The notes below the pieces were generated by a model. It worked only from the letters and a program-made list of their open reading frames with translations, was not told the DNA's origin and made no database searches. Both the position numbers and the translations under genes were made by a program. A stretch of DNA of 23,042 nucleotides from Bacteroidales bacterium. Its GTDB lineage: Bacteria; Bacteroidota; Bacteroidia; Bacteroidales; UBA932. The number at the start of each line of letters is the position of its first letter. Position 1 is the first letter of the stretch. Of this stretch, positions 3,280 to 22,503 are shown in pieces. The stretch covers positions 1 to 23,042 of the forward strand of contig JAILIM010000009.1 in assembly GCA_024695285.1 (NCBI GenBank), written 5' to 3'.

Positions 3280-3287
3280 ATATGAAT

Positions 3288-4817
3288 ATGAAGAAGATTT
3301 ACGTTTTCGCGCTCTCAGCGCTCGCAATCATTGCTGTCTCCTGCAACAAGAACACCTTCGACGACGCTCCTTCCGGGACAGTCGTCAAGACCTTCACCGT
3401 AGAAGCTCCCGCAAACTCAAAGACCGCCCTCGACGGTATGAGCATCAAGTGGTCTGCCGGAGATGAAATCAACGTCGTGGCCGCCACCACAGGAAATCAG
3501 TACACTTTCACCCTCAAAGACGGAGCCGGCAGCAGCTCAGCCACATTCTCCGGCACCGTGCTCAGCGAAGACGCTTCAGAGACCAGCTTCGTGGCCGTGT
3601 ATCCCAATGTCAGCATAAGGCCTGCGTCCCTCCCGATAATCGAATTCGACTCCACTATGGGACGTATCAGGAAGGCGGTAAAAGACGGTTTCGACCCCGC
3701 CCAGAGCGTGCTGACTGCAGTCTCCGACAATGGCAGTTTCTCTTTCCGCCACGGTTCAGCCTACTTCAAGATTCAGGTTTCCGATGATAATGTCGATTCG
3801 CTGGTACTACATACTAGCAGCGCACGCTTCAGTGGAAGGCCCAAGTACAATGAAGACGGCTCCTACAACAACGTGGAAGGAGCGAAGCCCGATGTCGTAC
3901 TCGCTCCCGCGTCGGGAACGCTCGAGAAAGGCGCCACTTATTACATTCCCGTACTCTGCAAGAATTCCACACTCAAGATCCTGACGCTGACCGCCTACAA
4001 CCACAACGGAAAGAGCACCTCTTTTTCGACGGAAAAGAAGAGCACCGTAAAACTGGAACTGGGTAAGGTTTATGACCTCGGCTGTCCCGACATCAGCGTC
4101 GAGCCTGTCGTGACCGTGCTTACAGCAAGCGTCACCGGGGTGTCTGCAGATGCTGCCACCGGGCTGACTATCGCTGATGCTTATTCCGTCCGCAACGGCA
4201 CCGACGCAAACGTGACCGTGACCTACGACGGTACCGTAATCACAGCCGCATCAATCAACGGCGGCACAGTGACCTACAGTATTTCAGCGAACACGGGATC
4301 CGCACGCGACGGCTGGATTGGACTGAACACCGAAGGCGGCGAAGTAAAGAAGATTACCGTCAGCCAGCTGGCTGCAGGTGCGACCGAGCACTACGTCTGG
4401 GACTTCTCCTCCGATGAATGGCAGGCCGAGTTTGCCAAATATGGTGGCGTGAATAGCGATATTACCAACTGGAACCTCACATATAAGGGCCTCACGATAG
4501 TATCTTCCGCAAAGTCCAAATACAACACAACCTTCTTCCAGTGGGGCGGTAAGGGAAGCACAACCGACCGTTATATGACCTTCACGGCAAGCGGCGCAGG
4601 CACACTTAAAGTCACCGCATCCAATACGGGCAGCAGTGCAGATACTTCCCGTAAAGTCGCAGTGTTAGTCGGAAGCAGCGACGAGGTAAGTCAAGTCGGA
4701 GGTTCTGCGAGTTCAAGTCCAACAGTCTGTGAGTTCGAAATCGCAGCCGGTTCCGTCAAGATATACGCTATCGGCAACGCACTCCGTTTCTACAAGATTG
4801 AATTCACGGGAAAATAA
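3288..4817 (+). CDS. Multidomain surface lipoprotein, predicted non-catalytic glycan-binding protein
   Basis: The product is 509 aa. A lipoprotein signal MKKIYVFALSALAIIAVSC places the lipidated Cys at residue 19, and an Asp pair follows it (CNKNTFDDAP). Residues ~30-260 resemble the fimbrillin-like N-terminal region of the neighbouring pectate lyase (KTALDGMSIKWSAGDEINVV, then a FTLKDGAGSSSATFSG stretch). Residues ~262-360 look like a BACON-type Ig fold ending EVKKITVSQL. Residues ~365-509 are the WDFS-x-x-EWQAEFAK module shared with the lyase and the gene at the left edge. There is no catalytic domain, so the protein looks like the lyase without its enzyme part, consistent with a substrate-binding role at the surface analogous to SusE/F-type proteins; that role is inference. 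The start at 3288 follows from AAGGAG spacing and the signal peptide; longer starts add a non-signal leader. Confidence 0.8.
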   Translation: MKKIYVFALSALAIIAVSCNKNTFDDAPSGTVVKTFTVEAPANSKTALDGMSIKWSAGDEINVVAATTGNQYTFTLKDGAGSSSATFSGTVLSEDASETSFVAVYPNVSIRPASLPIIEFDSTMGRIRKAVKDGFDPAQSVLTAVSDNGSFSFRHGSAYFKIQVSDDNVDSLVLHTSSARFSGRPKYNEDGSYNNVEGAKPDVVLAPASGTLEKGATYYIPVLCKNSTLKILTLTAYNHNGKSTSFSTEKKSTVKLELGKVYDLGCPDISVEPVVTVLTASVTGVSADAATGLTIADAYSVRNGTDANVTVTYDGTVITAASINGGTVTYSISANTGSARDGWIGLNTEGGEVKKITVSQLAAGATEHYVWDFSSDEWQAEFAKYGGVNSDITNWNLTYKGLTIVSSAKSKYNTTFFQWGGKGSTTDRYMTFTASGAGTLKVTASNTGSSADTSRKVAVLVGSSDEVSQVGGSASSSPTVCEFEIAAGSVKIYAIGNALRFYKIEFTGK

Positions 4818-4974: not shown

Positions 4975-7900
4975 ATGAAAAAGACATTAATTACCCTTCT
5001 TGGCTTCGCCGCATTGTTTGCCGCATCCTGCCAGCCCAAAGAGCTGGTGGAACCTTTCCCCGGGGAGCGCCTCGTTCCCCTTACCCTGACTGCCGAGCAG
5101 GACGGAACACGTACACACATCGAGGTTGCTCCTACCGGCTGGCTGCCCTACTGGAACGACCAGGATTCCATCTTCGTGACCGTCGGAACCGACCTCAGCA
5201 AGGCCTACACCTTCATCAACACCAGCGGCGCCGGCACGACTGCCACCTTCAGCGGCGGCATTAAGGAAGGCGAAGGGCAGATGAGCATCTACGCCTTCAC
5301 CCCCAATAAATCCGGCAGGGCCGAAGACATCTTCAAATTCGAGATTGCATCCGAGCAGGAACTTCCCGACCTGACCACTTTCGATCCCCGTTACGACCTG
5401 CTGATTTCAGATGCCCTTGCAGTAAATGTCGCTGAAGGCAAGGCCTATGCAGACGGCAAGCTCCATTTCAACCGTATGCTTGCCATCGCAAAGGTGGTCA
5501 TCGCCGACGAAACATCCGACAACAGGCTATCCGGCAGGAAGATAAAGAGTGTCAAGCTCACTTCCTCAACCCAGGATCTCAGCGGCAAAGTGCGCGTGAA
5601 AATCACCGACCGCAGCTTCGACGGAATGGAGAGCAAGGAGAAGTACAACTATGTCGGGGCGACCTACAGCGGCGACGACTGGACGGCCGACGGCACCTCC
5701 GGAGGCTTCCTGATTATCAATCCCTGTACGCTTGACGCCGGGTCACAGCTCACGCTTGACGCCACCACTGACGACCAGGGCCTCACCTTCCACCACGCGG
5801 CCCAGCTTGCGTCTGCCTTGGAACTCAAGAGCGGCTCTATTCCCACCCTGAAGTTCGTCATCAAGGACCAGGATTTTGCGACAGTAACCACCTGGGACTT
5901 CTCCGAAAGCGGCTGGCAGGCTGAATTCGCCAAGCTAGGCTCAGCAGCCACAGAACTTGACCCCGTATCGCTCACTTATGCCGGACTGACCATCAAGGCC
6001 GACACTAAGAGCAAGTACAACACCACCTACTTCCAGCCGGCCAATCCCGGTTCAACCGCAGGCAACCACTTCAAGTTCACCGCTCCTGAGTCCGGCACCG
6101 TGACCGTCGTAGAATCCCACACAGGATCTTCGGCCCCCAACCCCCTGCGCAGCATCGTGGTCAACAACGGAGGCCAGGAAACCACCATTGAAGGCAGCAC
6201 AAGTTCCCAAAACAAGAAGACCTGCATTTTCAACGTCGTGGCAGGTGATGTCTACGTATATGGCACCGGAGCCGCAAGATACTACAGTATCAGCTATGTC
6301 CCCGGCCAGAGCGTCGATCCGGGCAATCCCGACAATCCTGATCCCCCTGTTAGCACCACGGCAGATCTTGAGTGCACCAACCCTCCGGCAACCGGGACTG
6401 TCGATCCGACATTGATGTACGGCTTTGCAGAAGCGGCGGGAGTGACCGGAGGCGACAACGCAAGTTCCGCGAACGTGCTCCACTTCAACAACGGCAAGGC
6501 ACTCCAGACATGGCTGCTCGCCCGCACGAAGAGCGAGAAGAAGGGTGACCACTCCCCCGTCACAATCTGGCTCAGCGGCACATTCGGTCCCGAAGACGGC
6601 CGCGATTTCAGTTCGGCCCATCCCTGGTTCGACGTCAAAGACGTCAGCAACCTGAGCTTCTACGGCACCGACGGATTCGTGATGGACCGCATTGGTATCT
6701 TCTGCGTGCGTGCAAACAACATCATCATCCGCAACATCAATTTCCAGCAGCCCAAGGCCAACAACGGTGCCGACGCTGTCTCCATGCAGGAATGCGACGG
6801 AGTCTGGGTGGACCATTGCACCTTCACGTCCCTCAACCAGACAAAGGACTACGAGGACGGCTCCACCGACATCACCCACGCATCCAAGAACGTTACCGTG
6901 AGCTGGTGCCGCTACATCAAGACGCAGAAGAGCTGCCTCGTGGGACACTCCAACAGCGCTTCCGCCGATGCGGCCATAACAGCTACGTTCCACCACAACT
7001 GGTTCGACGGTTCCAGTTCCCGCCATCCCCGTGTTCGCTTCGGCCAGGCCCACGTCTACAATAACCTGTATGACGGCTGCACCACCTACGGCGCAGGTTC
7101 CGCCTACGGAGCAAAGGTGCTCCTGGAATATAACTACTTCGACGGCGTTCAGTTGCCTACCGACATCTGCACCTATCCCGCCAAGGAGAGCAACGAGTCC
7201 AATCTCCAGGGCTCCGTGGCAGGATACCTCTACCCCACGCAGAACGTGTATGTGAACCGTCCTGCAAAGGCAAAGGATCCGTATCCGCTGAGCAACGTCA
7301 AGTACACGTCCTACAACGGCAGCACCATCACTCCCCTCACCTACGACGACTTCAAGCCAGCCTACGACTACGTCGTGACGGCAGCGGAAGACGTGCCCGC
7401 TGTGGTGAAGGAACACTCCGGCTACGGCAAGCTCGGATGGACCGAAGCGCCCGTCGCGGTCAACAACGGCGGCATAACGGAGTTCAACGGCACCGACGAC
7501 GATCCTACCAATCCCGACGTGGACGATCCGGATGATCCGGGTAATCCCTCCGGCGGCGATGGCGGAGCGCACACCCATGTCTTCTACTACGACTCTTCCA
7601 GTGCGGCCAAGAACCTCACCGACGGCGCTGCCGGCACTTACTTCACCGCCACGGCGAAAACCGACCTCTCCAAGGACTATTACTCAGGTTTCAACCCCTG
7701 GACCATCGGGGATTACACCTCGACCAAGGGCGTCAAGCTGAACAGTTCAGGATCGGTGACCTTCACGACCTCCGCATCCGTAAGCTCCACGGTACAGTTC
7801 TGGTTCATCCGCAGGCAAAGCAGTGCTGAAACGGCCAAGATCCAGATTGTCCCCGCCACCGGTACCGAACAGGTCTTTGACACTCCGTACGATACCATCG

Positions 7901-8004
7901 GATACTCCGGAGAACTGACCCTGGAAAAGGGTATGGGCTACACCATCAAGCAAAAATCCAGCGAGCAGGCCCTGCTCCTTGTCATAGTAAAAGAAACCGA
8001 ATAA
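4975..8004 (+). CDS. Multidomain PL1 pectate lyase lipoprotein
   Basis: The product is 1009 aa. A lipoprotein signal (MKKTLITLLGFAALFAASC, Cys19) leads to a fimbrillin-like N-terminal region (~30-295). A WDFS-x-x-GWQAEFAK module follows (~303-442), then a Pro/Asp-rich linker and a PL1 parallel beta-helix (~465-815). Lyase landmarks are VWVDHCTF (Asp613, His614), DGSTDITHASKNVTVSWCRY (Asp628, Asp632, candidate calcium ligands) and RHPRVRFGQAHVYNN with the Arg683/Arg686/Arg688 cluster that carries the catalytic base in PL1. A second Asp/Pro/Gly linker (~842-865) precedes a C-terminal module (~866-1009) that looks like a divergent copy of the first one. It would cleave de-esterified polygalacturonate by beta-elimination at the cell surface, giving unsaturated oligogalacturonides. 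It sits between the 46-aa peptide gene and uxaB. Confidence 0.93.
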   Translation: MKKTLITLLGFAALFAASCQPKELVEPFPGERLVPLTLTAEQDGTRTHIEVAPTGWLPYWNDQDSIFVTVGTDLSKAYTFINTSGAGTTATFSGGIKEGEGQMSIYAFTPNKSGRAEDIFKFEIASEQELPDLTTFDPRYDLLISDALAVNVAEGKAYADGKLHFNRMLAIAKVVIADETSDNRLSGRKIKSVKLTSSTQDLSGKVRVKITDRSFDGMESKEKYNYVGATYSGDDWTADGTSGGFLIINPCTLDAGSQLTLDATTDDQGLTFHHAAQLASALELKSGSIPTLKFVIKDQDFATVTTWDFSESGWQAEFAKLGSAATELDPVSLTYAGLTIKADTKSKYNTTYFQPANPGSTAGNHFKFTAPESGTVTVVESHTGSSAPNPLRSIVVNNGGQETTIEGSTSSQNKKTCIFNVVAGDVYVYGTGAARYYSISYVPGQSVDPGNPDNPDPPVSTTADLECTNPPATGTVDPTLMYGFAEAAGVTGGDNASSANVLHFNNGKALQTWLLARTKSEKKGDHSPVTIWLSGTFGPEDGRDFSSAHPWFDVKDVSNLSFYGTDGFVMDRIGIFCVRANNIIIRNINFQQPKANNGADAVSMQECDGVWVDHCTFTSLNQTKDYEDGSTDITHASKNVTVSWCRYIKTQKSCLVGHSNSASADAAITATFHHNWFDGSSSRHPRVRFGQAHVYNNLYDGCTTYGAGSAYGAKVLLEYNYFDGVQLPTDICTYPAKESNESNLQGSVAGYLYPTQNVYVNRPAKAKDPYPLSNVKYTSYNGSTITPLTYDDFKPAYDYVVTAAEDVPAVVKEHSGYGKLGWTEAPVAVNNGGITEFNGTDDDPTNPDVDDPDDPGNPSGGDGGAHTHVFYYDSSSAAKNLTDGAAGTYFTATAKTDLSKDYYSGFNPWTIGDYTSTKGVKLNSSGSVTFTTSASVSSTVQFWFIRRQSSAETAKIQIVPATGTEQVFDTPYDTIGYSGELTLEKGMGYTIKQKSSEQALLLVIVKETE

Positions 8005-9530: not shown

Positions 9531-10982
9531 ATGAGCACACAGAAGAAATTAATGACCAATTGGCGCTGGTGGCTGTGCAGCCTGCTGTTCGTGGCCACCA
9601 CCGTCAATTACCTTGACAGGCAGGTGCTGTCCCTCACATATGAGGAGTTCATCAAGCCCGAGTTCCATTGGACCGATGCCAACTACGGCACCATCACCAG
9701 CTTCTTCTCCATCTTCTACGCCATCTGCTGCCTGTTCGCCGGCAAGTTCGTAGACTGGATGGGCACCAAGAAGGGCTACCTGATCGCCATCGGCGTGTGG
9801 TCCGCGGGCGCCTGCCTGCATGCCGCTACCGGCTGGGCCACGGCCCACCTCGCCGGACTCGACTCAGTCGCCGCAATGCGCGCCGTTGAAGTCGGATCCA
9901 ACGTGGCTCTGGCAGTATCTACGACTTCGGTTTATCTGTTCCTTTTGTGCCGCGGCATCCTCGCACTCGGCGAGGCGGGCAACTTCCCCGCCGCCATCAA
10001 GGTCACGGCAGAGTACTTCCCGAAGAAAGACCGCGCCTTCGCCACCTCCATCTTCAATGCAGGTGCATCCGTCGGCGCGCTGGCAGCTCCCCTGCTTATA
10101 CCGCCGCTGGCCGTGAAATTCGGCTGGGAGATGGCTTTCATCATCATCGGCGGACTTGGATTCATCTGGATGTTCTTCTGGGCCTTCATGTACGACAAGC
10201 CCGAGAAGAGCAAGAGGGTCAACGAGGCGGAGCTGGAGTATATCCACCAGGACGATGCCGAAGAGGCAGCCGCAAAGGCCGCAGTCGCCGAAGAAAAGAG
10301 CATTCCTTTCCTGAAGTGCTTCAAGTACAGGCAAACCTGGTCTTTCATCGCCGGCAAGTTCTTCACCGACGGTGTCTGGTGGTTCTTCCTGTTCTGGGCA
10401 CCTTCATATTTCAGCAACCAGTTCCAGGCTCCGGCCACTTCGCCGCTCGGACAGTGGCTGATCTTCACCCTCTACCTTATCGTCACCGTGATCTCCATCG
10501 GGGGCGGATACCTGCCCAAGATATTCGTGGACAAGAAGGGTATGCATCCGTATGCAGGCCGAATGCTTGCTATGCTGATATTCGCCTTCTTCCCCCTCGC
10601 CGCTCTGCTTGCCCAGCCTCTTGGCGTGCATTTCAACACTCCCTGGTGGCCGGCAATCCTCATCGGCCTTGCTGGAGCAGGCCATCAGGCCTGGAGCGCC
10701 AACCTCTTCTCTACCACCGGCGATATGTTCCCGAAGAGCACGGTCGCGACCATCACCGGCATCGGCGCCATGGCCGGAGGCATCGGATCAATGATTATCC
10801 AGTGGGTAGCCGGACAGCTGTTCACCTATGCAGAAGCACAGGGTGCAGCCTTCCACTTCCTCGGCTTCGAGGGCAAGCCCGCGGGCTACTTCATCATGTT
10901 CTGCTTCTGCGGTCTCGCATACATAATCGCGTGGAGCATAATGAAGTCCCTCGTGCCCAAATACAAGCCGGTTGAAGCCTGA
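9531..10982 (+). CDS. exuT: Hexuronate MFS transporter, ExuT-like (anion:cation symporter family)
   Basis: The product is 483 aa with about 12 predicted membrane segments. It starts MSTQKKLMTNWRWWLCSLLF, followed by the ACS-family signature NYLDRQVLSLTYEEF and a TM2-3 loop FVDWMGTKKGYL of the MFS D-R-x-G type. It would import galacturonate or glucuronate across the inner membrane with a proton. It lies 4 nt after uxaB, and its TGA overlaps the ATG of the next small frame (TGATG). A start at the later Met (9552) is possible but the start at 9531 fits the operon spacing. The assignment rests on family signature and context; a related uronate or sugar acid is possible as substrate. Confidence 0.88.
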   Translation: MSTQKKLMTNWRWWLCSLLFVATTVNYLDRQVLSLTYEEFIKPEFHWTDANYGTITSFFSIFYAICCLFAGKFVDWMGTKKGYLIAIGVWSAGACLHAATGWATAHLAGLDSVAAMRAVEVGSNVALAVSTTSVYLFLLCRGILALGEAGNFPAAIKVTAEYFPKKDRAFATSIFNAGASVGALAAPLLIPPLAVKFGWEMAFIIIGGLGFIWMFFWAFMYDKPEKSKRVNEAELEYIHQDDAEEAAAKAAVAEEKSIPFLKCFKYRQTWSFIAGKFFTDGVWWFFLFWAPSYFSNQFQAPATSPLGQWLIFTLYLIVTVISIGGGYLPKIFVDKKGMHPYAGRMLAMLIFAFFPLAALLAQPLGVHFNTPWWPAILIGLAGAGHQAWSANLFSTTGDMFPKSTVATITGIGAMAGGIGSMIIQWVAGQLFTYAEAQGAAFHFLGFEGKPAGYFIMFCFCGLAYIIAWSIMKSLVPKYKPVEA

Positions 10983-11144: not shown

Positions 11145-12308
11145 ATGAGCAGCAATCGCGAAATCTGGCTGGACTGGCTGCGCGTGACCGCGTGCTTCCT
11201 GGTGATGGCCACCCACAGCTGCGAGCCCTTCTACCTGGGTGGTGAGGGCTCGCTTATCCTCACCAAGGCCGACGCGCTATGGGTGTCGGTGCTGAATGTT
11301 ATTCCGCGCGCCTGCGTGGCGCTTTTCGTGGTGGCATCGAGCTACCTCCAGTTCCCGCTCGGCTACCCCACGAAAGAATTCTTCAAGCGGCGTGCGCTGC
11401 GCATCCTGCCGCCTTTCCTGGTGTGGAGCGTGGTCTATGCCCTTATCTGGGGTGAACCGGTGCAGAATTTCAAGGACCTGCTGCTGAATTTCAACTATGC
11501 CGCGGGCCATATGTGGTTCGTTTACATGATCCTGGGCATCTACCTGCTGATGCCCCTCCTTTCTCCGTGGGCACGCAAGGTGGGCAGGAAGGAACTCCTG
11601 TTCTACCTTGCGGTCTGCCTCTTCACCACGGCAATTCCTTTCATCCGCCAGTGGGCAGGCGGGGCCGCTCCCGTCATCTATGGCCCTTCGGGTATTCCCA
11701 ACACCGCCAAGTACCCGCTCTGGGGCGAAGCGAGCTGGAACAGCTACGGCCTGTTCTACTACTTCAGCGGCTTCATCGGCTACCTGCTTCTCGGCCTCTA
11801 CTTCAAGAAGTTCGTGGGCCGTATGTCCGCAGGGCGCACAATAGCGATCGCCGCCCCTCTTTTCCTTGCCGGATTCGCGGTCTGCAACGCCGGCTTCCTC
11901 ACCCGCGTGTGGGCCGACTGCGGCGGAGAATTCCCGGTTGAAGGCCCCGTGGGGCTCGCAGCCCTTTGGGAAGGTCCCTGGCTCAACGACACCCTTGGCG
12001 TCGCCCTTATGGTAGTTGCTTGGATGCTGCTCTTCCGCCTCATACAGAACGGCGGGGCTTTCTATGATAAAGTACTCGTGCCGGTCAGCAAGGCAAGCTA
12101 CGGCATGTACCTGTGCCACATGGTGATACTCGGCGCCATCTCAGGATGGCTTCGGGGCGCCCTTGGCCTGGGGGCTGAAGGGGTGCTTGGGATCTGGACC
12201 ACTCCGGTGCAGATACTCGCCACCGCCATATTAAGCTTCACCGCCTCGGCAATCTTCTGCATACTCGTGCAAAAGATTCCCAAGGCGGGTCGCTGGATTG
12301 CCGGATAA
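11145..12308 (+). CDS. Membrane acyltransferase, acyltransferase-3 family
   Basis: The product is 387 aa with about ten hydrophobic segments. The first reads IWLDWLRVTACFLVMATHSC, containing the family's R-x(6-9)-H pattern with the essential His in or after TM1. Other features are the RRALRILPPFLVWS stretch and AGHMWFVYMILGIYLLMP, both characteristic of acyltransferase-3 proteins. These inner-membrane enzymes move acyl groups, often acetyl, onto sugars of surface or secreted glycans; the acceptor here is unknown. It lies 16 nt after the pectinesterase relic and ends the rightward operon. Its family members share low identity, so the second acyltransferase at 12489-13616 is a distant relative rather than a recent copy. 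Confidence 0.85.
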   Translation: MSSNREIWLDWLRVTACFLVMATHSCEPFYLGGEGSLILTKADALWVSVLNVIPRACVALFVVASSYLQFPLGYPTKEFFKRRALRILPPFLVWSVVYALIWGEPVQNFKDLLLNFNYAAGHMWFVYMILGIYLLMPLLSPWARKVGRKELLFYLAVCLFTTAIPFIRQWAGGAAPVIYGPSGIPNTAKYPLWGEASWNSYGLFYYFSGFIGYLLLGLYFKKFVGRMSAGRTIAIAAPLFLAGFAVCNAGFLTRVWADCGGEFPVEGPVGLAALWEGPWLNDTLGVALMVVAWMLLFRLIQNGGAFYDKVLVPVSKASYGMYLCHMVILGAISGWLRGALGLGAEGVLGIWTTPVQILATAILSFTASAIFCILVQKIPKAGRWIAG

Positions 12309-12488: not shown

Positions 12489-13616
12489 CTAGTTTTTCTT
12501 CTCTCCGAGTACCGCCCAGCGGACGAAGGGAATGCGCTTGAGCATTTCGTTCAGAAGGGGAGAAATAATAAACACGGCTGCCGTCAGTATAGCGTACATC
12601 GCTGCTGGCGGCAGTTGCGTATACTGCTTCATCATGTAGCCAAGGCTGGCGACCACGAGATAATGGACAATGTAGAGGCCGAAACTGTTACGCGTCATGT
12701 AAGAAGCGAAGGCGGAGGTGCGGTCGAAGCGGGCCTTGAACCACGCCATCATGCCGAGGCAGCCAAGCCAGCCGTAGATGCAGTTGAGGGGACTGCCGAG
12801 ATACTCCGGGCTGGTGTTGTCCTTTCCGAAGCTCAGGGCGATAAGGACGGCTCCCGAGACGACTGCGGCGGCCAGCAGCGGTATCCAGGCCTTGCCCAGC
12901 TGCTCATGTACCTCATCTTTGCTGAAGATAAAGTACCCCATAAGGAAAGGAACAAAGTAGAACAGCGGCTTGTACAGGTTATACAGTCCGTCCGCGGAAT
13001 CTGGCCTGGGATTATGGATTATGAGCTGCTCGCCCGCCCAGAACACGACACCCAGAAGGATGAGCCACACTATGCCCGTTTTGCCGCCGAAGAGACGGCC
13101 GCAGGCGTCGTGGAACTTGTCCTTGGCGTCCAGCTTACGGATAAGCAGGAGCAGAAGCGAGAAGAGCCACAGGTCCTGGATAAACCATAGCGGACCCGTG
13201 CCGCTGAAGGACCACATGAAGTATTTGGCCACTCCGGGCACGTCTGCAGTAAGGTCGACGCCCTGTGCCGCACCGGCAACTGCCGTATTGAAATACCCTG
13301 CCATCCACTGGAACACGAACAGGCCGATGGTGCCGGGAACAAGGAGCTTACGGGTGCGGGCACCGAACCACTCCTTGCCGGAAAGCTTGCGGAGAGCGTA
13401 CCTGGAGCCGATGCCCGCCAGCAGGAACAGCAACGGCATGAACCACGGGTACAGGATATACATGACGACATCCTGATACTGAGGGCATTCGGGATACGGG
13501 CCGAAGCCTCCTATCCCGCCGAAGACGCCCTTGTTGTTATAGAAATAGATTACATGATAGAACAGAACCAGGAGAACTGTGACCCAGCGCAGATTGTCAA
13601 TCCAATGCTTTCTCAT
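12489..13616 (-). CDS. Membrane acyltransferase, acyltransferase-3 family
   Basis: The product is 375 aa from the ATG at 13616 (MRKHWIDNLRWVTVLLVLFY, then His), or 386 aa from an in-frame ATG at 13649. The shorter start is preferred because homologues begin with the RKxxIDNLR motif directly. The DNLR-to-His spacing in TM1 is the family hallmark. Later segments include RTRKLLVPGTIGLFVFQW and GPLWFIQDLWLFSLLLLL. About ten membrane segments are visible. The acceptor is unknown. It is the last gene of the leftward kduD-EIIC-kduI-CE8 operon, 50 nt after the pectinesterase stop (17 nt if the longer start is used). It mirrors the rightward acyltransferase that follows a pectinesterase relic. Confidence 0.83.
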   Translation of the reverse strand: MRKHWIDNLRWVTVLLVLFYHVIYFYNNKGVFGGIGGFGPYPECPQYQDVVMYILYPWFMPLLFLLAGIGSRYALRKLSGKEWFGARTRKLLVPGTIGLFVFQWMAGYFNTAVAGAAQGVDLTADVPGVAKYFMWSFSGTGPLWFIQDLWLFSLLLLLIRKLDAKDKFHDACGRLFGGKTGIVWLILLGVVFWAGEQLIIHNPRPDSADGLYNLYKPLFYFVPFLMGYFIFSKDEVHEQLGKAWIPLLAAAVVSGAVLIALSFGKDNTSPEYLGSPLNCIYGWLGCLGMMAWFKARFDRTSAFASYMTRNSFGLYIVHYLVVASLGYMMKQYTQLPPAAMYAILTAAVFIISPLLNEMLKRIPFVRWAVLGEKKN

Positions 13617-13666
13617 TTTGAAAGGCCTAAACTTATAGGAAATATCCAAAAAACTACCAATGATTC

Positions 13667-15418
13667 CTAATATCCCAATACCGACTGCCGGGAAGAATAT
13701 GCAGCCGCCTCGTCTGCCGTGAGAACGCGGCCGTAGGCATTGTGACCCGCAACGGCCTTGCCGGATGCATCCACGCTGCCGAACTCACGCCAGCCGCTAG
13801 TGGCTGTAGGCACGGCGGGATTGGGAGCCGGATTGGTGTACCAGCCGGCAGGGCTGATTGCCGCCCCCATCCGGCAGTTCACGAACACAACGTTATCCCA
13901 GCAATCCGTCTGGCCGGCTGAACGGGCAAGATACATCGAACCGTCCTTGACGCCGTCTTCGGCAGTCAGGTTGCAACGAAGGAACACGAAGCCCTTGTCA
14001 GAGGCAGACTGAACACGCGCCTGTATTATATACCCTGCTGCACGTGCCCGAATCTCACAATCCTCGAAAAGGCAGGCCTTCGGGTAGCCCCAGATGAAGT
14101 CGCAATGGCCGGCAATAAGGGAATTGTGCACCCAGGCCACTCCCTTGCATAGAAACGTGTCCTGATATGACAACAGAGAGCACTGTTCCACGGTCAGGCG
14201 GTGAGCGTTACTTCCTGAATTGAAATAGATACACTCAGCCTGAGCCTGACCCTTGAGCTCGCCGAAACTGTTTTCAATCGTCAGGTCCTGAAGCGTCAGG
14301 TTGTCGCAATTCTCCACCAGGAACACGCTGCGGCCGCCGTTCTTTCCGACAGAACCCCCTACTGCAGGCCTGGAAGACACATTGCCGCCTGAACCGTTGG
14401 CATACGCCTCACTGTTCGGATACACTATCCTCACGGCATCACGCGAAGCTCCCTTAAGCGTGATGCCGCTTTTATCGCGAAGGAAAAGCGTCTCGTTGTA
14501 GGTCCCCGGAGCCAGAGAAATGACGCAGCCGTCCTTGGCCGCATAATCCAGCGCACGTTGAATGGTGCAGAAATCACCGGAACCGTCAGGAGCCACAGTC
14601 AGCGCCGCCGCCGAAGCCGGAACGCTGCCGGTCCTGAAGGAAAATTCACCGGGCTTTATGCCCCCGAAACCTTCAACGACACCCTCATCTACGGTCACAT
14701 AATACTCCGTGTCGAATTTCAGCACGCCGCTGTGAGGCTTGATTACCAGCGACTTGCCCTCAACCCGCAAAGGGGTGCAATTCACGACGCGCCATTTTCC
14801 GGAACAAGGAAGGGCGTCCATGAAGGTGTTGAATTTGGTGTCGTTCACCATCTGCTGGAGCGGCACCATACATGCGTCTTCCCGAACCTTGACAGTTGCA
14901 AGGTCCGCAAGGTCGATCCTGTCCACCTCGCTGCCCGAAGCGGTAAACACCTTTATCAGACCCGCATGGCCAAGCGACGGCTTGCTGTCAAAGCTCAGCA
15001 CCACAGGTGCATCCACGCAGACAGCGCCCTCCGAAGGGCCGGGCGCAGTACCCTGAGTGACCACTGCCAGCTCGCTGCTGTAGTCCGACTTGCCGCCGGA
15101 TCCGACGGCACAGACACTGAAACGGTATGCTGTGCCGGGAGTGAGTTTCTCGATGGTGACGTTACGCTTGGCGGCGCTTCCCTCCCGCATGGCTTCAGCA
15201 TCGCTTGAAAGGCGCCAGCTATAGCCGGTGGCACCTTCAACGGCGCTCCACTGGAAGGTCAGCGTAGTTTCGGTTGACCCGTGAAGGGTCACGTTGGCAG
15301 GGGCCGCCAGGTTCTGCTGCGAAGGGGTGTCCGGACCATCAGGTTCTCCGGACGGCTTGCAGGCCACGAGTAACGCAGCGACTGCGAAAAGGGCGGCAAG
15401 GCTTGAACGGCGACCCAT
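13667..15418 (-). CDS. CE8 pectin methylesterase lipoprotein with FN3 and Ig-like domains
   Basis: The product is 583 aa from ATG at 15418. The signal MGRRSSLAALFAVAALLVAC gives a lipidated Cys at residue 20. A fibronectin type III domain (~37-125, APANVTLHGSTETTLTFQWS onward) and a second Ig-like domain (~135-255) precede the right-handed beta-helix CE8 domain (~265-583), which begins VAPDGSGDFCTIQRALDYA. Catalytic landmarks are SYQDTFLCKG with Asp420 and GHCDFIWGYP with Asp440, plus YLAR for the substrate-binding Arg. It removes methyl esters from homogalacturonan, making it a substrate for the PL1 lyase. An upstream in-frame Met at 15598 is rejected because it overlaps kduI and lacks a signal. 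The gap to kduI is 4 nt. Confidence 0.92.
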   Translation of the reverse strand: MGRRSSLAALFAVAALLVACKPSGEPDGPDTPSQQNLAAPANVTLHGSTETTLTFQWSAVEGATGYSWRLSSDAEAMREGSAAKRNVTIEKLTPGTAYRFSVCAVGSGGKSDYSSELAVVTQGTAPGPSEGAVCVDAPVVLSFDSKPSLGHAGLIKVFTASGSEVDRIDLADLATVKVREDACMVPLQQMVNDTKFNTFMDALPCSGKWRVVNCTPLRVEGKSLVIKPHSGVLKFDTEYYVTVDEGVVEGFGGIKPGEFSFRTGSVPASAAALTVAPDGSGDFCTIQRALDYAAKDGCVISLAPGTYNETLFLRDKSGITLKGASRDAVRIVYPNSEAYANGSGGNVSSRPAVGGSVGKNGGRSVFLVENCDNLTLQDLTIENSFGELKGQAQAECIYFNSGSNAHRLTVEQCSLLSYQDTFLCKGVAWVHNSLIAGHCDFIWGYPKACLFEDCEIRARAAGYIIQARVQSASDKGFVFLRCNLTAEDGVKDGSMYLARSAGQTDCWDNVVFVNCRMGAAISPAGWYTNPAPNPAVPTATSGWREFGSVDASGKAVAGHNAYGRVLTADEAAAYSSRQSVLGY

Positions 15419-15422
15419 AGCG

Positions 15423-16343
15423 TTAGCGCATTTCGGTGTAGCCGAACTTGTCCATGTCGCCGTAGTCGAGGTTCTCGCCCGCCATGCCCCAGATGAACAT
15501 GTAGTTGGAGGTGCCGGCGGCGGCGTGGATGGACCACTCGGGAGACATGATCGCCTGTTCGTTGGCCAACCATACGAGGCGCTCCTCCTTGGGTTCACCC
15601 ATAAGGTGGCAGATCATATTGCCTTCGGTCACGTTGAAATAGAAATAGGCCTCTATGCGGCGGGAGTGGGTGTGGGCCGGCATGGTGTTCCACACGCTGC
15701 CCGGCTTCAGCTCCGTCAGGCCCATCTGCAGCTGGCAGGGGCCTTCTTCAAGCACGTTGGCCACTATAAGCTGGTTGATGACACGGTCATTGCTGTCTTC
15801 CATCTTTCCTGCGGGGAAGGAATTGGACTTCAGCGAGCCCTTGCGTCCCTCGATGGTCACGAGCTGGGTCTTATATACCTTGTGGGCCGGCGCTGAATTG
15901 ATGTAGAACTTTGCAGGGTTCTTAGCGTCCTTGCTCCTGAAAATGACATCCTTGTTGCCGCGGCCCACATAGAGGGCGTCCTTGAATTTCAGCGTGTAAC
16001 ATTTTCCGTCCACGCAGACGACGCCTTCACCGCCAACGTTGATGACGCCCAGTTCCCTGCGTTCGAGGAAAAAGTTCGCCTTGAGAGGGTCGATGGTCTC
16101 AAGTTTCAGGTCCTTGGTGGCAGGCACCGCCCCGCCGAAGATGAAACGGTCGTAGAGAGAATATGTGAGACGAATCTCATCGGCAACCATGACCTCGGGC
16201 ATCATGAAGCGTGCACGGAGAGTCTCGGTATCGTAGTGCTTTGCATCCTCAGGATGGCATGCGGTCTGGATGGTGTACTTTGTCTGCGCGCTGAGGGACA
16301 GACTGCAGATCAGGGCTGCAAATATGGTAATGCGCTTAAACAT
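15423..16343 (-). CDS. kduI: 5-keto-4-deoxyuronate isomerase KduI with an N-terminal signal peptide
   Basis: The product is 306 aa. From about residue 24 onward ([20 protein letters not shown]) it is a standard KduI (EC 5.3.1.17), which converts 4-deoxy-L-threo-5-hexosulose uronate to 3-deoxy-D-glycero-2,5-hexodiulosonate. The zinc ligands are visible as AHTHSRRIE (His224, His226, Glu231) and His273 in [11 protein letters not shown]. Residues 1-20 ([20 protein letters not shown]) look like a Sec signal with a cleavage site after SLSA, absent from the usual ~278-aa cytoplasmic KduI. The enzyme may therefore be periplasmic. The start at 16343 is the only one that gives a signal; upstream Mets lie inside the EIIC gene. 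It is 2 nt from the EIIC stop. Confidence 0.93.
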
Positions 16344-16345
16344 AA

Positions 16346-17734
16346 TTATTTGGTTTCTAATGATGCTTTGATGATACGGCGGCGGTTGATGACGGCCATT
16401 ACCGTGGTGCCGGCGACAAGTATGCCGCTGCCTATCCACTTGAAGTCATGAACGAGGTGGAAGATCACCCACGAGAAGATGCTGGACGCGAAATCGAGGC
16501 TGCCGCCCTGGAAACCGTCGGGAATGGCCACAGCCGCATCGCCCGTGCGTGCATAGACATCCTGTGCCGCCTTGGTGAACCAGGGAGCCAGGTCGGTGAC
16601 GAAGTACAGGCCCACGGTCAGCGCCACGAGGCCCACGATGAAGGTCTTGACCACGTTGCCCTTGGTGATAGGCAGCACGGCCGGGAACACGTAGAACATA
16701 CCGGCCAGGGATGCCAGCGGCAGGAATTCGTTGCCGGGAAGGATCACGGACAGCAGTATGGTCACAGGGATGAGCAGCAGCGACACCACAAGGGTCGTCG
16801 GGTGCCCGATCACGAGCGCGGGGCTCATGCCGATGTTGATGCCGGCAGAATTCTTGAACTTGCGGGACACCAGGTCCTTGGTGGCTTCAGCAATAGGCTT
16901 GAGGCCCTCGATGAAGAGGGACGTGATGCGGGGAATGAGTTCCATGACGGCGCCCATCTTGATGCCGAGTCCCAAAATCTTCGGGATACTCTGAACGATT
17001 TCTCCCCAGGTGCTGCATGACAGGCAGCCGATCAGGATGCCCACCAGCACTCCGAGGAACAGTGGCTCGCCAAGGATGCCGAATTTCTTCTTCATGCCTT
17101 CGGCGTCGATGTCCAGCTTGTTGAAGCCGGGAATCTTGTCGAGGCACCAGTTCACGCCCTCGGCAAACGGCACGAAGCTCTGGCAGAAGGGCTGCGGGAT
17201 GCTGATTCCGTCGAGGTCTTTATAGTAGGACTGGAACTTCTTCGTGGTCAGGTCCGCCATCACGAGCGTGATGATGAAACAGATTACAGCGGCGAAAAAG
17301 CCCCACCAGATGCTGTCGGTGGCATAAAACATCACGGCCCCGATGAAGGCAAAGTGCCAGTAGTTCCAAAGATCTATATTAATGGTGTTGGTGGCCTTGA
17401 CGAGCAGCAGGAGTATGTTAATGCCGAGGCACACGGGGATGATGAAGGCACCGACGGTGGTGTTGTAGGCCACGGAAGCGGCCGCCGGCCAGCCCATGTC
17501 GAAGATGCCGAGATGCAGGTCATAAATCTCGGTCATCGTCTTGAGCGGCGCACCCATGCTGGAGGTCAGCAGGGCCGTCACGACGCTCAGGCCCACGAAA
17601 CCGACACCGACGAGCAGGCCGCTCTTCAGCGCCTTTCCGAACTTGATGCCAATACAAAGGCCCAGGATCGTAAAGAGCACCGGCATCATCACCGCCGCCC
17701 CCAGACCAATTATATAACTAAATACTTGTTCCAT
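16346..17734 (-). CDS. Orphan EIIC transporter of the galactitol (EIIC-GAT) family
   Basis: The product is 462 aa with about 11-12 membrane segments. It begins [20 protein letters not shown], and long stretches are GatC-like: [41 protein letters not shown], a central [18 protein letters not shown] loop and [23 protein letters not shown]. In enteric bacteria GatC works with phosphorylated GatB and GatA. No EIIA, EIIB, HPr or EI gene lies in this window, so it may act as a secondary carrier. It sits between kduD and kduI in one operon, which suggests a keto-deoxyuronate or unsaturated uronate as substrate; that is inference from position. The intergenic hairpin at 17749-17799 separates it from kduD. 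Confidence 0.85.
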
Positions 17735-17802: not shown

Positions 17803-18606
17803 TTACTTAGGCTGTTTGCCGATGTAGGCTAGGATGCCGCCGTCGACGTAGAGTATGTGGCCGTTGACGGCGTCGGAAGCCTTGGAGGCGAGGAACACGG
17901 CGGGACCGGCCAGTTCGTCGGGCTCAAGCCAGCGGCCCGCCGGAGTCTTGGCGCAGATGAAACTGTCGAAAGGATGCCGGCTGCCGTCGGGCTGGCGCTC
18001 ACGCAGAGGCGCCGTCTGGGGCGTCGCGATGTAGCCCGGACCGATAGCGTTGCACTGGATGTTGTATTCACCGTACTCGGAGCAGATGTTGCGGGTCAGC
18101 ATCTTGAGGCCGCCCTTTGCCGCCGCATAGGCGCTGACCGTCTCGCGGCCGAGCTCGCTCATCATGGAGCAGATATTGATTATCTTGCCCTCGCGGCGCT
18201 CCATCATTTCAGGCACCACCGCCGCGGAACAGATGTACGGCCCCACCAGATCCACGTCGATGACACGCTGGAACTCCTCCCGCTTCATCTCGTGCATAGG
18301 AATGCGCTTGATGATGCCGGCATTGTTGACCAGGATGTCTATCTGCCCTATCTCCTTGTGGATACGTTCCACAAGGGCCTTTACTGCGTTCTCGTCGGTC
18401 ACGTCGCACACATAGCCGTGGACGTTGGTTATCCCGGCTTCGCGGTAGGCATCAAGGCCCTTCTGCATCGAGGCCTCGTTGGAGGTATTGAAAATGATGT
18501 TGTCAATGCCTGCCTGCACGAATGCTTTGGCAATGGCGAATCCGATGCCGTAGGCGGCTCCGGTGACCCAGGCGTTCTTGCCCTTCAAGGAAAAAAGATT
18601 ATCCAT
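17803..18606 (-). CDS. kduD: 2-keto-3-deoxygluconate 5-dehydrogenase KduD (SDR family)
   Basis: The product is 267 aa from ATG at 18606. It reduces 3-deoxy-D-glycero-2,5-hexodiulosonate to KDG (EC 1.1.1.127), the step after KduI. It is a classical short-chain dehydrogenase: cofactor motif TGAAYGIG (residues 15-22), NNAG (94-97) and catalytic Ser147, Tyr160 and Lys164 (SAYAAAKGG). It ends with a DGGILAYIG tail. A longer start at 18648 adds 14 residues that overlap the promoter box and is rejected. Gluconate 5-dehydrogenase (IdnO/Gno) is a close relative and an alternative name; the kduI, kdgK and kdgA context supports KduD. It leads the leftward operon and diverges from kdgK. Confidence 0.92.
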   Translation of the reverse strand: MDNLFSLKGKNAWVTGAAYGIGFAIAKAFVQAGIDNIIFNTSNEASMQKGLDAYREAGITNVHGYVCDVTDENAVKALVERIHKEIGQIDILVNNAGIIKRIPMHEMKREEFQRVIDVDLVGPYICSAAVVPEMMERREGKIINICSMMSELGRETVSAYAAAKGGLKMLTRNICSEYGEYNIQCNAIGPGYIATPQTAPLRERQPDGSRHPFDSFICAKTPAGRWLEPDELAGPAVFLASKASDAVNGHILYVDGGILAYIGKQPK

Positions 18607-18643: not shown

Positions 18644-18705
18644 ATCATTTTTCCGTGACCTCATAATCATTTTTCCGTTACCGTGCACGGAAATCCGGAA
18701 AAATG
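18641..18705. promoter_or_regulatory. Operator-like array between divergent kduD and kdgK
   Basis: Two 20-bp direct repeats, ATAATCATTTTTCCGTGACC (18641-18660) and ATAATCATTTTTCCGTTACC (18663-18682), differ at one base and are spaced by 22 bp, about two helical turns. A perfect palindrome CCGTGCACGG follows at 18681-18690. CATTTTTCCG (18668-18677) is repeated inverted as CGGAAAAATG at 18696-18705, framing the palindrome. The array fills the space between the two -7 boxes, as expected for sites of a shared regulator. No regulator gene is in the window. Confidence 0.7.
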
Positions 18706-18748: not shown

Positions 18749-19786
18749 ATGGCAAAAGTTGTAACGTTCGGCGAAGTAATGCTCCGCCTCTCGACTCCCG
18801 GATATCTCCGGTTTTCCCAGGCCCGCCAGTTCGACGCCACCTTCGGCGGCGGTGAGGCCAATGTAGCCGTGTCCCTCGCCAATTACGGCGTGGACGCGCG
18901 TTTCGTGACCCGTCTTCCCAAGAACGACATCGCCGACATGTGCGTTGCCGAACTCCGCGGACTCGGCGTCGGCGTGGACGGCATAGTCTACGGCGGTGAC
19001 CGCGTGGGCATCTACTATCTCGAGACCGGTGCGGTCGCCCGCGGCAGCAAGGTAGTCTACGACAGGGCCGGCTCGGCGATTTCCGAAATCAAGCCCGGTA
19101 TGGTGGACTGGCGCAAGGTGCTCGAAGGCGCCGACTGGTTCCACTGGACAGGCATCACCCCCGCCCTCTCCCAGGGTGCGGCAGACGCCTGCCTGGAAGC
19201 CATCAAGGTGGCCAATGAAATGGGCGTGAAGGTCAGCTGCGACCTGAACTACCGCAAAAAGCTCTGGAAATACGGCAAGAGCGCATCCGAAGTGATGCCC
19301 GCCCTCGTGGAAGGCTGCGACCTGATCCTCGGCAACGAAGAAGACGCCGAGAAGGAATTCGGCATCAAGCCGGAAGGATTCGACGCCGAGAAGACCGGCG
19401 GCGAAATCGACCAGACAGCATTCATCAGCGTGTGCCGCCAGCTCATGGAGAAGTTCCCCCGCTGCAAGAAAGTGGCCATCACCCTCCGCGGCTCCATCAA
19501 CGCCAACCACAACACCTGGGGCGGCGTGCTTTATGACGGCACAACTCTCTGGCAGTCAAGGCGCTACGACATCACCCACATCGTCGACCGCGTAGGCGGC
19601 GGCGACTCCTTCATGGGCGGACTGCTCTACGGCCTCCTCGCGTATGAAACTGACCAGGAAGCCATAGAATTCGCAGCTGCCGCATCCGCACTCAAGCACA
19701 CCATCATCGGCGACTATAACCGCGTCACCGTTTCCGAGGTCGAAGGCCTCATCAAGGGCGGCGGCTCCGGCAGGGTATCAAGGTAG
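18749..19786 (+). CDS. kdgK: 2-keto-3-deoxygluconate kinase KdgK (PfkB family)
   Basis: The product is 345 aa from ATG at 18749 (MAKVVTFGEVMLRLSTPGYL). It phosphorylates KDG at C6 with ATP (EC 2.7.1.45), where the galacturonate and unsaturated-uronate branches join. PfkB landmarks are the N-terminal FGGGEANVAVSLANYG substrate and nucleotide region and the C-terminal signature VGGGDSFMGGLLYG with catalytic Asp286. A longer in-frame start at 18683 is rejected because it precedes the TATCTTTG promoter box and gives non-homologous residues. It diverges from kduD, and a REP-like inverted pair separates it from kdgA. Confidence 0.95.
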   Translation: MAKVVTFGEVMLRLSTPGYLRFSQARQFDATFGGGEANVAVSLANYGVDARFVTRLPKNDIADMCVAELRGLGVGVDGIVYGGDRVGIYYLETGAVARGSKVVYDRAGSAISEIKPGMVDWRKVLEGADWFHWTGITPALSQGAADACLEAIKVANEMGVKVSCDLNYRKKLWKYGKSASEVMPALVEGCDLILGNEEDAEKEFGIKPEGFDAEKTGGEIDQTAFISVCRQLMEKFPRCKKVAITLRGSINANHNTWGGVLYDGTTLWQSRRYDITHIVDRVGGGDSFMGGLLYGLLAYETDQEAIEFAAAASALKHTIIGDYNRVTVSEVEGLIKGGGSGRVSR

Positions 19787-19870: not shown

Positions 19871-20533
19871 ATGAGCAAATTCAACAAGATAGATACGATA
19901 AGTATCATCCGCGGCACCGGGATAGTGCCTGTGTTCTACAACAAAGACGTCGAACTGACAAAGAAGGTCGTCAAGGCCTGCTACGACGGCGGCATCCGCG
20001 CCTTCGAGTTCACCAACCGCGGCGATGGAGCCCACAAGGTGTTCGAGGCCCTCATGGCCTTCGTGCGCGCCGAATGCCCCGAAATGGCGCTTGGCGCCGG
20101 CACCATACTCGACGCCCCCACCGCAGCGCTCTACATCCAGATGGGAGCCGATTTCATCGTGTCCCCCTGCCTGGTGGAAGAGGTCGTGCCTCTCTGCAAC
20201 CGCAGGGGTGTACCCTACTCTCCCGGCTGCGGCACCGTCAGCGAGATTGTGCGCGCACAGGAACTTGGCTGCGACCTGGTGAAGGTCTTCCCCGCCGGCA
20301 CCGTCGGAGGCCCCGCATTCGTCAAGAACGTCCTCGCCCCTCTCCCCTGGGCCATGATCATGTGCACCGGGGCCGTCGAACCCACTCAGGAGAATCTCTC
20401 AGCCTGGGCAAAGAGCGGCGTCACCGCGGTCGGAATGGGCTCCAAGCTCTTCCCCAAGGATGTAATCGCAGCCGGCGACTGGGCAGCTATTTCCGAACTC
20501 TGCGCAAAGTCCCTCGAATGGTTCCGCAAATAG
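19871..20533 (+). CDS. kdgA: 2-keto-3-deoxy-6-phosphogluconate aldolase KdgA/Eda
   Basis: The product is 220 aa. It splits KDPG into pyruvate and glyceraldehyde 3-phosphate (EC 4.1.2.14), the final step of both branches. It is a class I aldolase TIM barrel: the FEFTNRGDG strand carries the general-base Glu near residue 46, GAGTILDAP and SPGCGTVSEI are barrel loops, and the Schiff-base Lys138 lies in DLVKVFPAGTVGG. The ATG at 19871 gives the standard start MSKFNKIDTISIIRGTGIVP. It lies 84 nt after kdgK, beyond a REP-like inverted pair, and is closed by a strong terminator. It may also have 4-hydroxy-2-oxoglutarate aldolase activity as in Eda. Confidence 0.95.
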   Translation: MSKFNKIDTISIIRGTGIVPVFYNKDVELTKKVVKACYDGGIRAFEFTNRGDGAHKVFEALMAFVRAECPEMALGAGTILDAPTAALYIQMGADFIVSPCLVEEVVPLCNRRGVPYSPGCGTVSEIVRAQELGCDLVKVFPAGTVGGPAFVKNVLAPLPWAMIMCTGAVEPTQENLSAWAKSGVTAVGMGSKLFPKDVIAAGDWAAISELCAKSLEWFRK

Positions 20534-21573: not shown

Positions 21574-22503
21574 CTAAACTCCGGGATGCCCTCTGTGGCG
21601 CTTTTCATTATTCCAGAGGCCATATATTTCACTGACGTTTCCAGCGGTTATGAAAGCCGCTATCTTTTCGTTGCGGATATGGTTCATAAGGTTGGAAAAC
21701 TCTTCCTGGGTCAGCAGGGCTTGTATTTCCACGTTGACTTCTCCGCTGTAGCCGCCTTTTACTTCATACAGGCTGCAGCCCCTGTGGAGGGTATTTATAA
21801 TGTAGTCACGCAGATGCTCGAAATCCTTTGAGATAATGCAAACCCTCTTCCTCTTGTTGATGCTGGCAGTGAAATAATCGATTGCAAGGCCGTTCATCCA
21901 GGTGCCGACAAGGCCCGTCACGACCATCCTGAACGGATTGATAGTGAAAGCCGTGCAGCAGATAATGGCTCCAGCCACTGTCACGGACACTCCTATATCG
22001 AAATGCAGGTATTTGTTGACTATCTTGGCAAGTATGTCAAGGCCGCCGGTAGAAGCATTTATATGGAATAATATCGTCTGGGAAATGCTGACCACCAGCA
22101 CGAAGCAGACCAGGTCAAGCAGCGGATCGCCCATCACTGAGGTCATTCCGGGCTCGATTAGATTCTCGTAAGGCAGCACTTTCTCCCAGAATTCCAGCAT
22201 GGGACCGAGGATCAGGGCGGTGTAGACCGTCTTGGCGCCGAACTCCTTGCCGATAAGGAGCCAGGCCAGTATCAGCAGTATGGCATTGATTACGGTCACC
22301 ACCACCGAGACCTTCACGTTTATGCCTGCAAGGCCGAACAGATTGGATATCACGATGGAAAGACCGGATATTGAGCCGAGCACCAATTTACTGGGAATCA
22401 TGAAATAATAGACAGCGGCGGCGGCAATGGCCATACCGAGTGTCATGATGAAGAGTTCTTTCCAGAATTTGAAAGTACCCAGGTAACGAAGCACGTTATT
22501 CAT
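21574..22503 (-). CDS. YitT-family inner-membrane protein (DUF161 plus DUF2179)
   Basis: The product is 309 aa. Five or six membrane segments occupy residues ~15-210, with YitT landmarks FMIPSKLVLGSISGLSIVIS near the start and the conserved HINASTGGLDILAKIVNKY near the middle. A cytoplasmic DUF2179 domain (~215-300) contains ITAGNVSEIYG. YitT proteins are widespread, with two or more copies in many Bacteroidales; their transport substrate is not established. It is divergent from ftcD. Its C-terminal tail (NEKRHRGHPGV) stops 5 nt before the promoter of the next leftward gene. Confidence 0.88.
   Translation of the reverse strand: MNNVLRYLGTFKFWKELFIMTLGMAIAAAAVYYFMIPSKLVLGSISGLSIVISNLFGLAGINVKVSVVVTVINAILLILAWLLIGKEFGAKTVYTALILGPMLEFWEKVLPYENLIEPGMTSVMGDPLLDLVCFVLVVSISQTILFHINASTGGLDILAKIVNKYLHFDIGVSVTVAGAIICCTAFTINPFRMVVTGLVGTWMNGLAIDYFTASINKRKRVCIISKDFEHLRDYIINTLHRGCSLYEVKGGYSGEVNVEIQALLTQEEFSNLMNHIRNEKIAAFITAGNVSEIYGLWNNEKRHRGHPGV

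Follow-up and report, generated by a model that had tools for sequence, protein, structure and literature searches.

The DNA analysed here (the window, a stretch of 23,042 nucleotides from a Bacteroidales bacterium) is a pectin-use locus, as judged from its genes and from Pfam and equivalog profile searches (Table 1). At its core lie three minus-strand genes in the order dhuD-EIIC-kduI, with kdgK and kdgA running divergently. EIIC is immediately upstream of kduI, and only 2 bases separate its stop codon from the kduI start. For dhuD, the ATG at 18606 was preferred over 18648; the kdgK start was picked by eye, in a frame that opens at 18683. The window also holds a set of hexuronate genes that we take, by their sequences, to be uxaC, uxaA and uxaB. 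The MFS transporter adjoining uxaB scored 173.1 bits against the D-galactonate transporter model TIGR00893, under the cut-off of 395.

Table 1. Features of the pectin-use locus, in positions of the window
Feature	Position	Strand	Evidence or remark
kduI	15423..16343	-	306 aa, ATG start; NF002091 387.9 bits (cut-off 250); PF04962 77.7 bits
Sec/SPI-type leader of KduI	16287..16343	-	residues 1-19, predicted cut A19|Q20
His224, His226, Glu231 (presumed zinc ligands)	15651..15674	-	present, conserved
His273 (presumed zinc ligand)	15525..15527	-	present, conserved
Orphan EIIC-GAT permease	16346..17734	-	PF03611 263.6 bits (cut-off 24.2)
dhuD-type SDR reductase	17803..18606	-	NF005488 460.7 bits (cut-off 369)
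kdgK, divergent from dhuD	18749..19786	+	KDG kinase family matches
kdgA aldolase	19871..20533	+	NF005499 324.5 bits (cut-off 275)
Pectinesterase, fn3 domain and N-terminal leader, downstream of kduI	13667..15418	-	PF01095 67.9 bits
PL1-type pectate lyase, N-terminal leader	4975..8004	+	PF00544 116.5 bits
MFS transporter adjoining uxaB, hexuronate type by position	9531..10982	+	PF07690 169.9 bits

The window was compared with two sets of sequences. The first, referred to here as the close loci, comprised the window and the best 80 of 375 confirmed relatives, giving 81 loci that are biased to the window's kind. The second contained 260 sequences (259 loci and the window), one of which (L141) gave no KduI match. 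After filtering for length and completeness there were 247 KduI proteins, corresponding to 221 unique sequences, 87 with an N-terminal leader (leader-bearing) and 134 without (leaderless). Leaders were lacking in 134 of the 140 unique KduI sequences beyond the close loci.

The preliminary description of this DNA had stated that the KduI core and all four zinc ligands are intact, and this was borne out. The window protein falls within the NF002091 equivalog family, and the presumed metal site of three histidines and one glutamate is complete (H224, H226, E231 and H273). Their role as zinc ligands is presumed from E. coli KduI. His224, His226, Glu231 and His273 are kept in 87, 86, 87 and 87 of the 87 leader-bearing sequences, respectively, and in 132, 134, 133 and 133 of the 134 leaderless ones. 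All four are among 56 alignment columns that are >95% identical in both groups. The window KduI departs from the known members of the family in habit rather than in any catalytic criterion: known KduI is a leaderless cytoplasmic protein of about 278 aa, whereas the window protein begins with a leader of 19 residues.

This leader has an MFKR start, an uncharged hydrophobic stretch and the residues SLSA, after which comes Gln20. It thus possesses the basic n-region, the hydrophobic core and the small residues before the cut that define a Sec/SPI signal peptide. A Sec-type signal had been proposed earlier at residues 1-20; the leader itself stands, but its extent does not, as the likely cut between Ala19 and Gln20 falls one residue earlier. 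In an AlphaFold2 model built with 26 sequences (mean pLDDT 81.2, pTM 0.84), the leader had low confidence (mean pLDDT 49 for residues 1-10 and 47 for residues 11-20), with the first core strand running from residue 21. A later start codon, which the preliminary description had named among the findings that would undo its proposal, is ruled out for the window KduI since there is no ATG, GTG or TTG between Met1 and the conserved core. The sole starts before the core are a GTG 69 codons upstream, which lies inside the EIIC gene, and the ATG 37 codons upstream. A leader-giving start is present in 81 of the 81 close loci, the window included.

Leaders were called with a home-made Sec rule. The rule was positive for all 81 KduI proteins of the close loci and for none of the 134 leaderless KduI sequences. 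Among soluble cytoplasmic neighbours from the same loci it was positive for 0 of 76 (KdgK 0/31, KdgA 0/27, UxaB 0/10, UxaA 0/5 and UxaC 0/3), and it was likewise negative for all 75 EIIC proteins. Exported controls were recovered in 13 of 16 cases for pectinesterase and in 1 of 1 for PL1. False calls were made for 15 of 40 DhuD proteins, at low score (highest 2.79), and for 5 of 38 MFS membrane proteins. Raising the threshold to at least 2.9 kept 72 of the 81 KduI proteins and none of the 40 DhuD proteins.

The way in which the leader varies is also informative. In 84 leader-bearing relatives the leader aligned over a sufficient length for comparison; their identity to the window averaged 31% (range 11-50%) in the leader, against 84% (64-96%) in the mature part. 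Lysine or arginine nevertheless occurs within the first six residues of all 87 leader-bearing sequences, 85 of the 87 leaders have no acidic residue, alanine occupies the -1 position in 85 and glutamine the +1 position in 84. The letters of the leader therefore drift while charge, hydrophobicity and the A|Q site persist, which is the pattern of signal-peptide evolution. Export of KduI by Sec is well supported, about as firmly as sequence can make it, and would place the enzyme in the periplasm.

Two solved structures bear on the same boundary. The closest solved chain, 9kd0, aligns to the window KduI from Gln20 on, and over 287 aligned residues it is 100% identical to residues 20-306 of the leader-bearing copy of Bacteroides xylanisolvens XB1A (L068). 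The chain of 9kcz is 99.6% identical over 275 aligned residues to a leaderless copy from the same genome (L082) and to a further one (L086). From these identities, the depositors apparently dropped exactly the leader in 9kd0 and nothing in 9kcz, and they had probably recognised the leader in the former. Among the papers searched, none names 9kd0 or 9kcz.

We compared the N-termini of KduI proteins according to their EIIC neighbourhood, as the preliminary description had suggested, and the result was as its proposal would predict. Among the 221 unique sequences, an EIIC gene lay directly upstream of 83 of the 87 leader-bearing copies and of none of the 134 leaderless ones. For leaderless genes of the drawn genomes the flank fetched was 1.5-2.5 kb, shorter at contig ends, so that an EIIC gene beyond it would be missed; the whole-genome search for EIIC covered the Bacteroidales draw. 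In the four exceptions (L038, L057, L059 and L075), EIIC was farther upstream in the same cluster, with kdgK and kdgA between EIIC and kduI (L057 and L059), or stood beside dhuD on another contig of the same genome (L038), or the contig stopped 1.7 kb upstream of kduI (L075). In the draw of 295 Bacteroidales genomes, 72 had a KduI match over the cut-off (the genes of two of these, G437 and G538, were left out). Leader-bearing KduI was found in 8 of the 295 (G002, G242, G332, G384, G457, G487, G516 and G563), and EIIC-GAT in exactly those eight and nowhere else. Each of 12 named genomes examined individually has exactly one EIIC-GAT, which adjoins the leader-bearing KduI in 11 of them.

The number of times this association arose is small. 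A quick tree of 170 of the 221 sequences required two changes to account for the distribution of leaders, and in a more careful tree of 58 chosen rows all leader-bearing rows formed a single side of the tree, weakly supported (73/83). Most belong to a main clade that forms one strongly supported group and is marked by group-specific residues, by an insertion close to residue 166 and by two residues added at 201-202. A second lineage (L144 and L145; L260:6539-9702 and L261:6292-9414) likewise combines a leader of its own with a dhuD-EIIC-kduI cluster but lacks that insertion; it may or may not share its origin with the main clade. On these trees the leader would have only one or two origins. 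As there are only one or two leader-bearing clades, the association of leader and EIIC has very few independent events behind it. One metagenome-assembled genome labelled Paenibacillus (L062) has a dhuD-EIIC-kduI locus that falls together with those of Barnesiella and Muribaculaceae; this genome is perhaps mis-binned or mis-named.

The permease encoded between dhuD and kduI is an EIIC-GAT protein by its match to PF03611. Against the GatC model TIGR00827 it scored 363.6 bits, under the cut-off of 542.2, and so lies outside that subfamily as modelled. The sole solved chain that it matches is 9u82, a galactitol IIC protein of the phosphotransferase system (PTS), at 249.6 bits. It resembles the GatC-type EIIC of the galactitol PTS in being a PF03611 permease and differs from it in falling below the TIGR00827 cut-off and in its genomic company: profile searches found HPr in 0 and EIIB in 0 of 12 related named genomes (the window's own genome was not among the 12). 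The same searches gave matches in 7 of 14 (HPr) and 6 of 14 (EIIB) control genomes. The N-terminal domain of EI was matched in one of the 12, weakly (24.2 bits, in G011) and in a frame with an internal stop. A PTS function for this EIIC is thus unlikely, HPr and EIIB being unmatched in all 12 genomes while the control genomes gave matches, and the permease probably does not act as a PTS component.

A partial precedent for transport in such a state comes from E. coli. In a strain lacking EI, transport of xylose without phosphorylation (facilitated diffusion) by a galactitol-type PTS transporter was deduced in the part of PMC10989795 that deals with it, where deletion of IIA, IIB or IIC is also reported to have lowered xylose use in each case. 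Since all three were needed, that part of the study provides a precedent for unphosphorylated transport and not for EIIC acting alone.

The reductase of the cluster is an SDR of the PRK07097/gbs1891 type and not KduD: it exceeded the cut-off of NF005488 and scored 209 against the KduD model TIGR01832, under the cut-off of 338.85. In the PDB it matched 9kd1 (442.5 bits, the nearest chain) and 4u8g, which is gbs1891 (393.1 bits). We take gbs1891 to be DhuD. The entry number of 9kd1 is the next after that of 9kd0.

In 45 of the 81 close loci a dhuD gene lies upstream in the same orientation. It was not found in 25 loci with at least 4 kb of upstream sequence, most of them from Bacteroides or Phocaeicola, and in the other 11 the fetched upstream stretch was shorter than 4 kb. 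A leaderless KduI is present as well in eight of the 12 named genomes, and in these eight dhuD is beside the leaderless copy. Such a second, leaderless KduI could serve keto-uronate that arrives by another route. In the remaining four no KduI other than the leader-bearing copy was matched (draft assemblies are among them).

An exported KduI would need its substrate outside the inner membrane. Searches of five genomes, four of which have leader-bearing KduI only, gave 33 GH88-family matches, 17 of them strong. Leaders were called on these 17, from the best-scoring ATG in frame, and the 16 weaker matches were left out; 15 of the 17 had a leader by the Sec rule and the other two (L283 and L286) had one by eye. 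A GH88 domain was also encoded near the cluster itself: locus L051 has one as part of a leader-bearing pectinesterase fusion, divergent from EIIC, and a GH88 domain like it occurred within the fetched stretch of 11 of the 81 close loci. For PL22, the cytoplasmic oligogalacturonate lyase, 12 of 13 genomes had no match and the remaining one a match of 37.7 bits. A chondroitin GH88 enzyme of B. thetaiotaomicron is described in one part of PMC9067506 as periplasmic and as releasing 5-keto-4-deoxyuronate. The substrate of KduI should therefore be available in the periplasm, to judge by these predicted leaders. The suggestion made earlier, that uronate isomerisation may be periplasmic, is supported by the grouping with EIIC, the leaders on the GH88 hydrolases and the absence of PL22 matches from 12 of 13 genomes.

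We propose the following route. KduI would be exported by Sec, cut after Ala19 and stay soluble in the periplasm. Exported GH88/GH105 unsaturated uronyl hydrolases would release 5-keto-4-deoxyuronate (DKI, also DHU) there, and KduI would convert it to 3-deoxy-2,5-hexodiulosonate (DK-II). The adjacent EIIC-GAT, working without PTS partners, would carry DK-II across the inner membrane unphosphorylated. DhuD, in which no leader was seen, would reduce DK-II to KDG in the cytoplasm, and KdgK and KdgA would act thereafter. The usual order of uptake and conversion would be reversed. What the sequences provide towards this scheme is an intact KduI, its conserved leader, the link to EIIC, the lack of HPr and EIIB matches in 12 genomes and the leaders on the hydrolases; from these we infer the periplasmic location of KduI, its activity there, and both the cargo and the mode of action of EIIC. 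The route as a whole (periplasmic isomerisation, import of DK-II by an orphan EIIC without phosphorylation and reduction by DhuD) appears to us moderately probable. Our confidence is reduced by the requirement for IIA and IIB in the E. coli precedent and by the clustering of dhuD in only 45 of the 81 loci.

Several other readings were weighed against this route. KduI could be exported while EIIC carries something else (e.g. galacturonate or DKI), in which case the gene order would reflect shared regulation only. We consider this unlikely. It draws on the presence of a separate hexuronate route in the window (uxaC, uxaA, uxaB and the MFS transporter, all named by sequence), on the score of EIIC under the GatC cut-off, on a cargo that is only presumed and on the inconstant presence of dhuD in the cluster (45 of 81 close loci). 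Against it, leader-bearing KduI and EIIC-GAT are confined to one and the same set of 8 Bacteroidales genomes out of 295, and in clusters that include dhuD the order dhuD-EIIC-kduI suits an import step between isomerase and reductase. It is improbable, in our judgement, that the leader is inefficient or dual in effect, so that much KduI remains in the cytoplasm and acts there as usual. The four named genomes in which only a leader-bearing copy was seen (drafts included) argue against such a dual location, as does the persistence of the A|Q site and of the leader properties despite changing letters. The retention of a leaderless KduI in 8 of 12 named genomes speaks in its favour, and because of these copies the group probably continues to isomerise uronate in the cytoplasm.

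Doubts about the enzyme or its start codon carry less weight. An exported KduI might act on a different uronate or clear a reactive keto-aldehyde from the periplasm, with the feeding of the pathway secondary, and its specificity could have drifted, given the insertion and group-specific residues of the main leader-bearing clade. The 56 columns shared at >95% identity by both groups, ligands included, and an NF002091 score well over the cut-off make this highly improbable. Least credible of all is that the start codon is wrong and that the true KduI begins later and is cytoplasmic. Some relatives do have further ATGs inside the leader, and some gene models start late (e.g. at MSAQ in P0093), but the window has no start between Met1 and the core and all 81 close loci have a start that gives the leader.

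Returning to the proposed route, the window KduI can be set beside systems already described. It belongs to the same family as the solved KduI structures 1x8m (286.9 bits), 1xru and 9kcz (333.9 bits) and has the same presumed zinc ligands; it differs from them in its 19-residue leader, and the main leader-bearing clade differs further in its insertion and two extra residues. With 9kd0, by identity a Bacteroides xylanisolvens KduI, it shares the leader-bearing clade, the 9kd0 chain itself being without the leader. The kduI-dhuD type E cluster of Bacteroidota, as presented in the main text of PMC12838403, similarly combines KduI with a DhuD-type reductase, and the leaderless copies in L081-L088 adjoin dhuD as in that cluster. 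In contrast, the window has the order dhuD-EIIC-kduI and a KduI with a leader. The same text assigns kduI-dhuD to Bacteroidota and dhuD-kduI specifically to Mycoplasmatota and Spirochaetota, and applies a 1000-bp cut-off in its plot of gene distances. With about 1.4 kb between dhuD and kduI, the dhuD-EIIC-kduI arrangement may for this reason have escaped that survey. The word 'signal' is absent from its main text, and the portions consulted mention neither a KduI leader nor an intervening permease.

The portions of PMC12838403, PMC12269599, PMC6045597, PMC7953866, PMC9067506, PMC3878776, PMC11381880, PMC10989795, PMC8072126, PMC13274419 and PMC5306329 that were consulted do not describe an exported KduI. 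According to one section of PMC3878776, some proteins of the KdgR regulon of B. thetaiotaomicron are periplasmic or extracellular; they are not named in that section, and it is possible that the localisation table in its supplement contains an earlier notice of the exported enzyme.

If the proposed route is correct, a step of pectin and glycosaminoglycan degradation that textbooks place in the cytoplasm would occur, in bacteria of the gut and rumen, beyond the inner membrane. Keto-uronate remaining in the periplasm would have a candidate importer, and a PTS permease would have a role in genomes without HPr or EIIB matches. We would give an even chance to the broader proposition that Bacteroidales evolved an isomerise-then-import route in which a stripped PTS permease became a dedicated DK-II carrier feeding DhuD, the exported KduI being the sole copy in some species (4 of the 12 named genomes).

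Elsewhere in the window, a 510-aa protein without a Pfam match (3285-4817, plus strand) neighbours the pectate lyase. The two have in common a C-terminal domain of about 136 residues with 43% identity, together with a weaker N-terminal similarity. Two acyltransferase-3 membrane proteins form a convergent pair in the middle of the pectin locus (11145-12308, plus strand; 12489-13649, minus strand), and a YitT-family membrane protein with a DUF2179 domain lies at its edge (21574-22503, minus strand).
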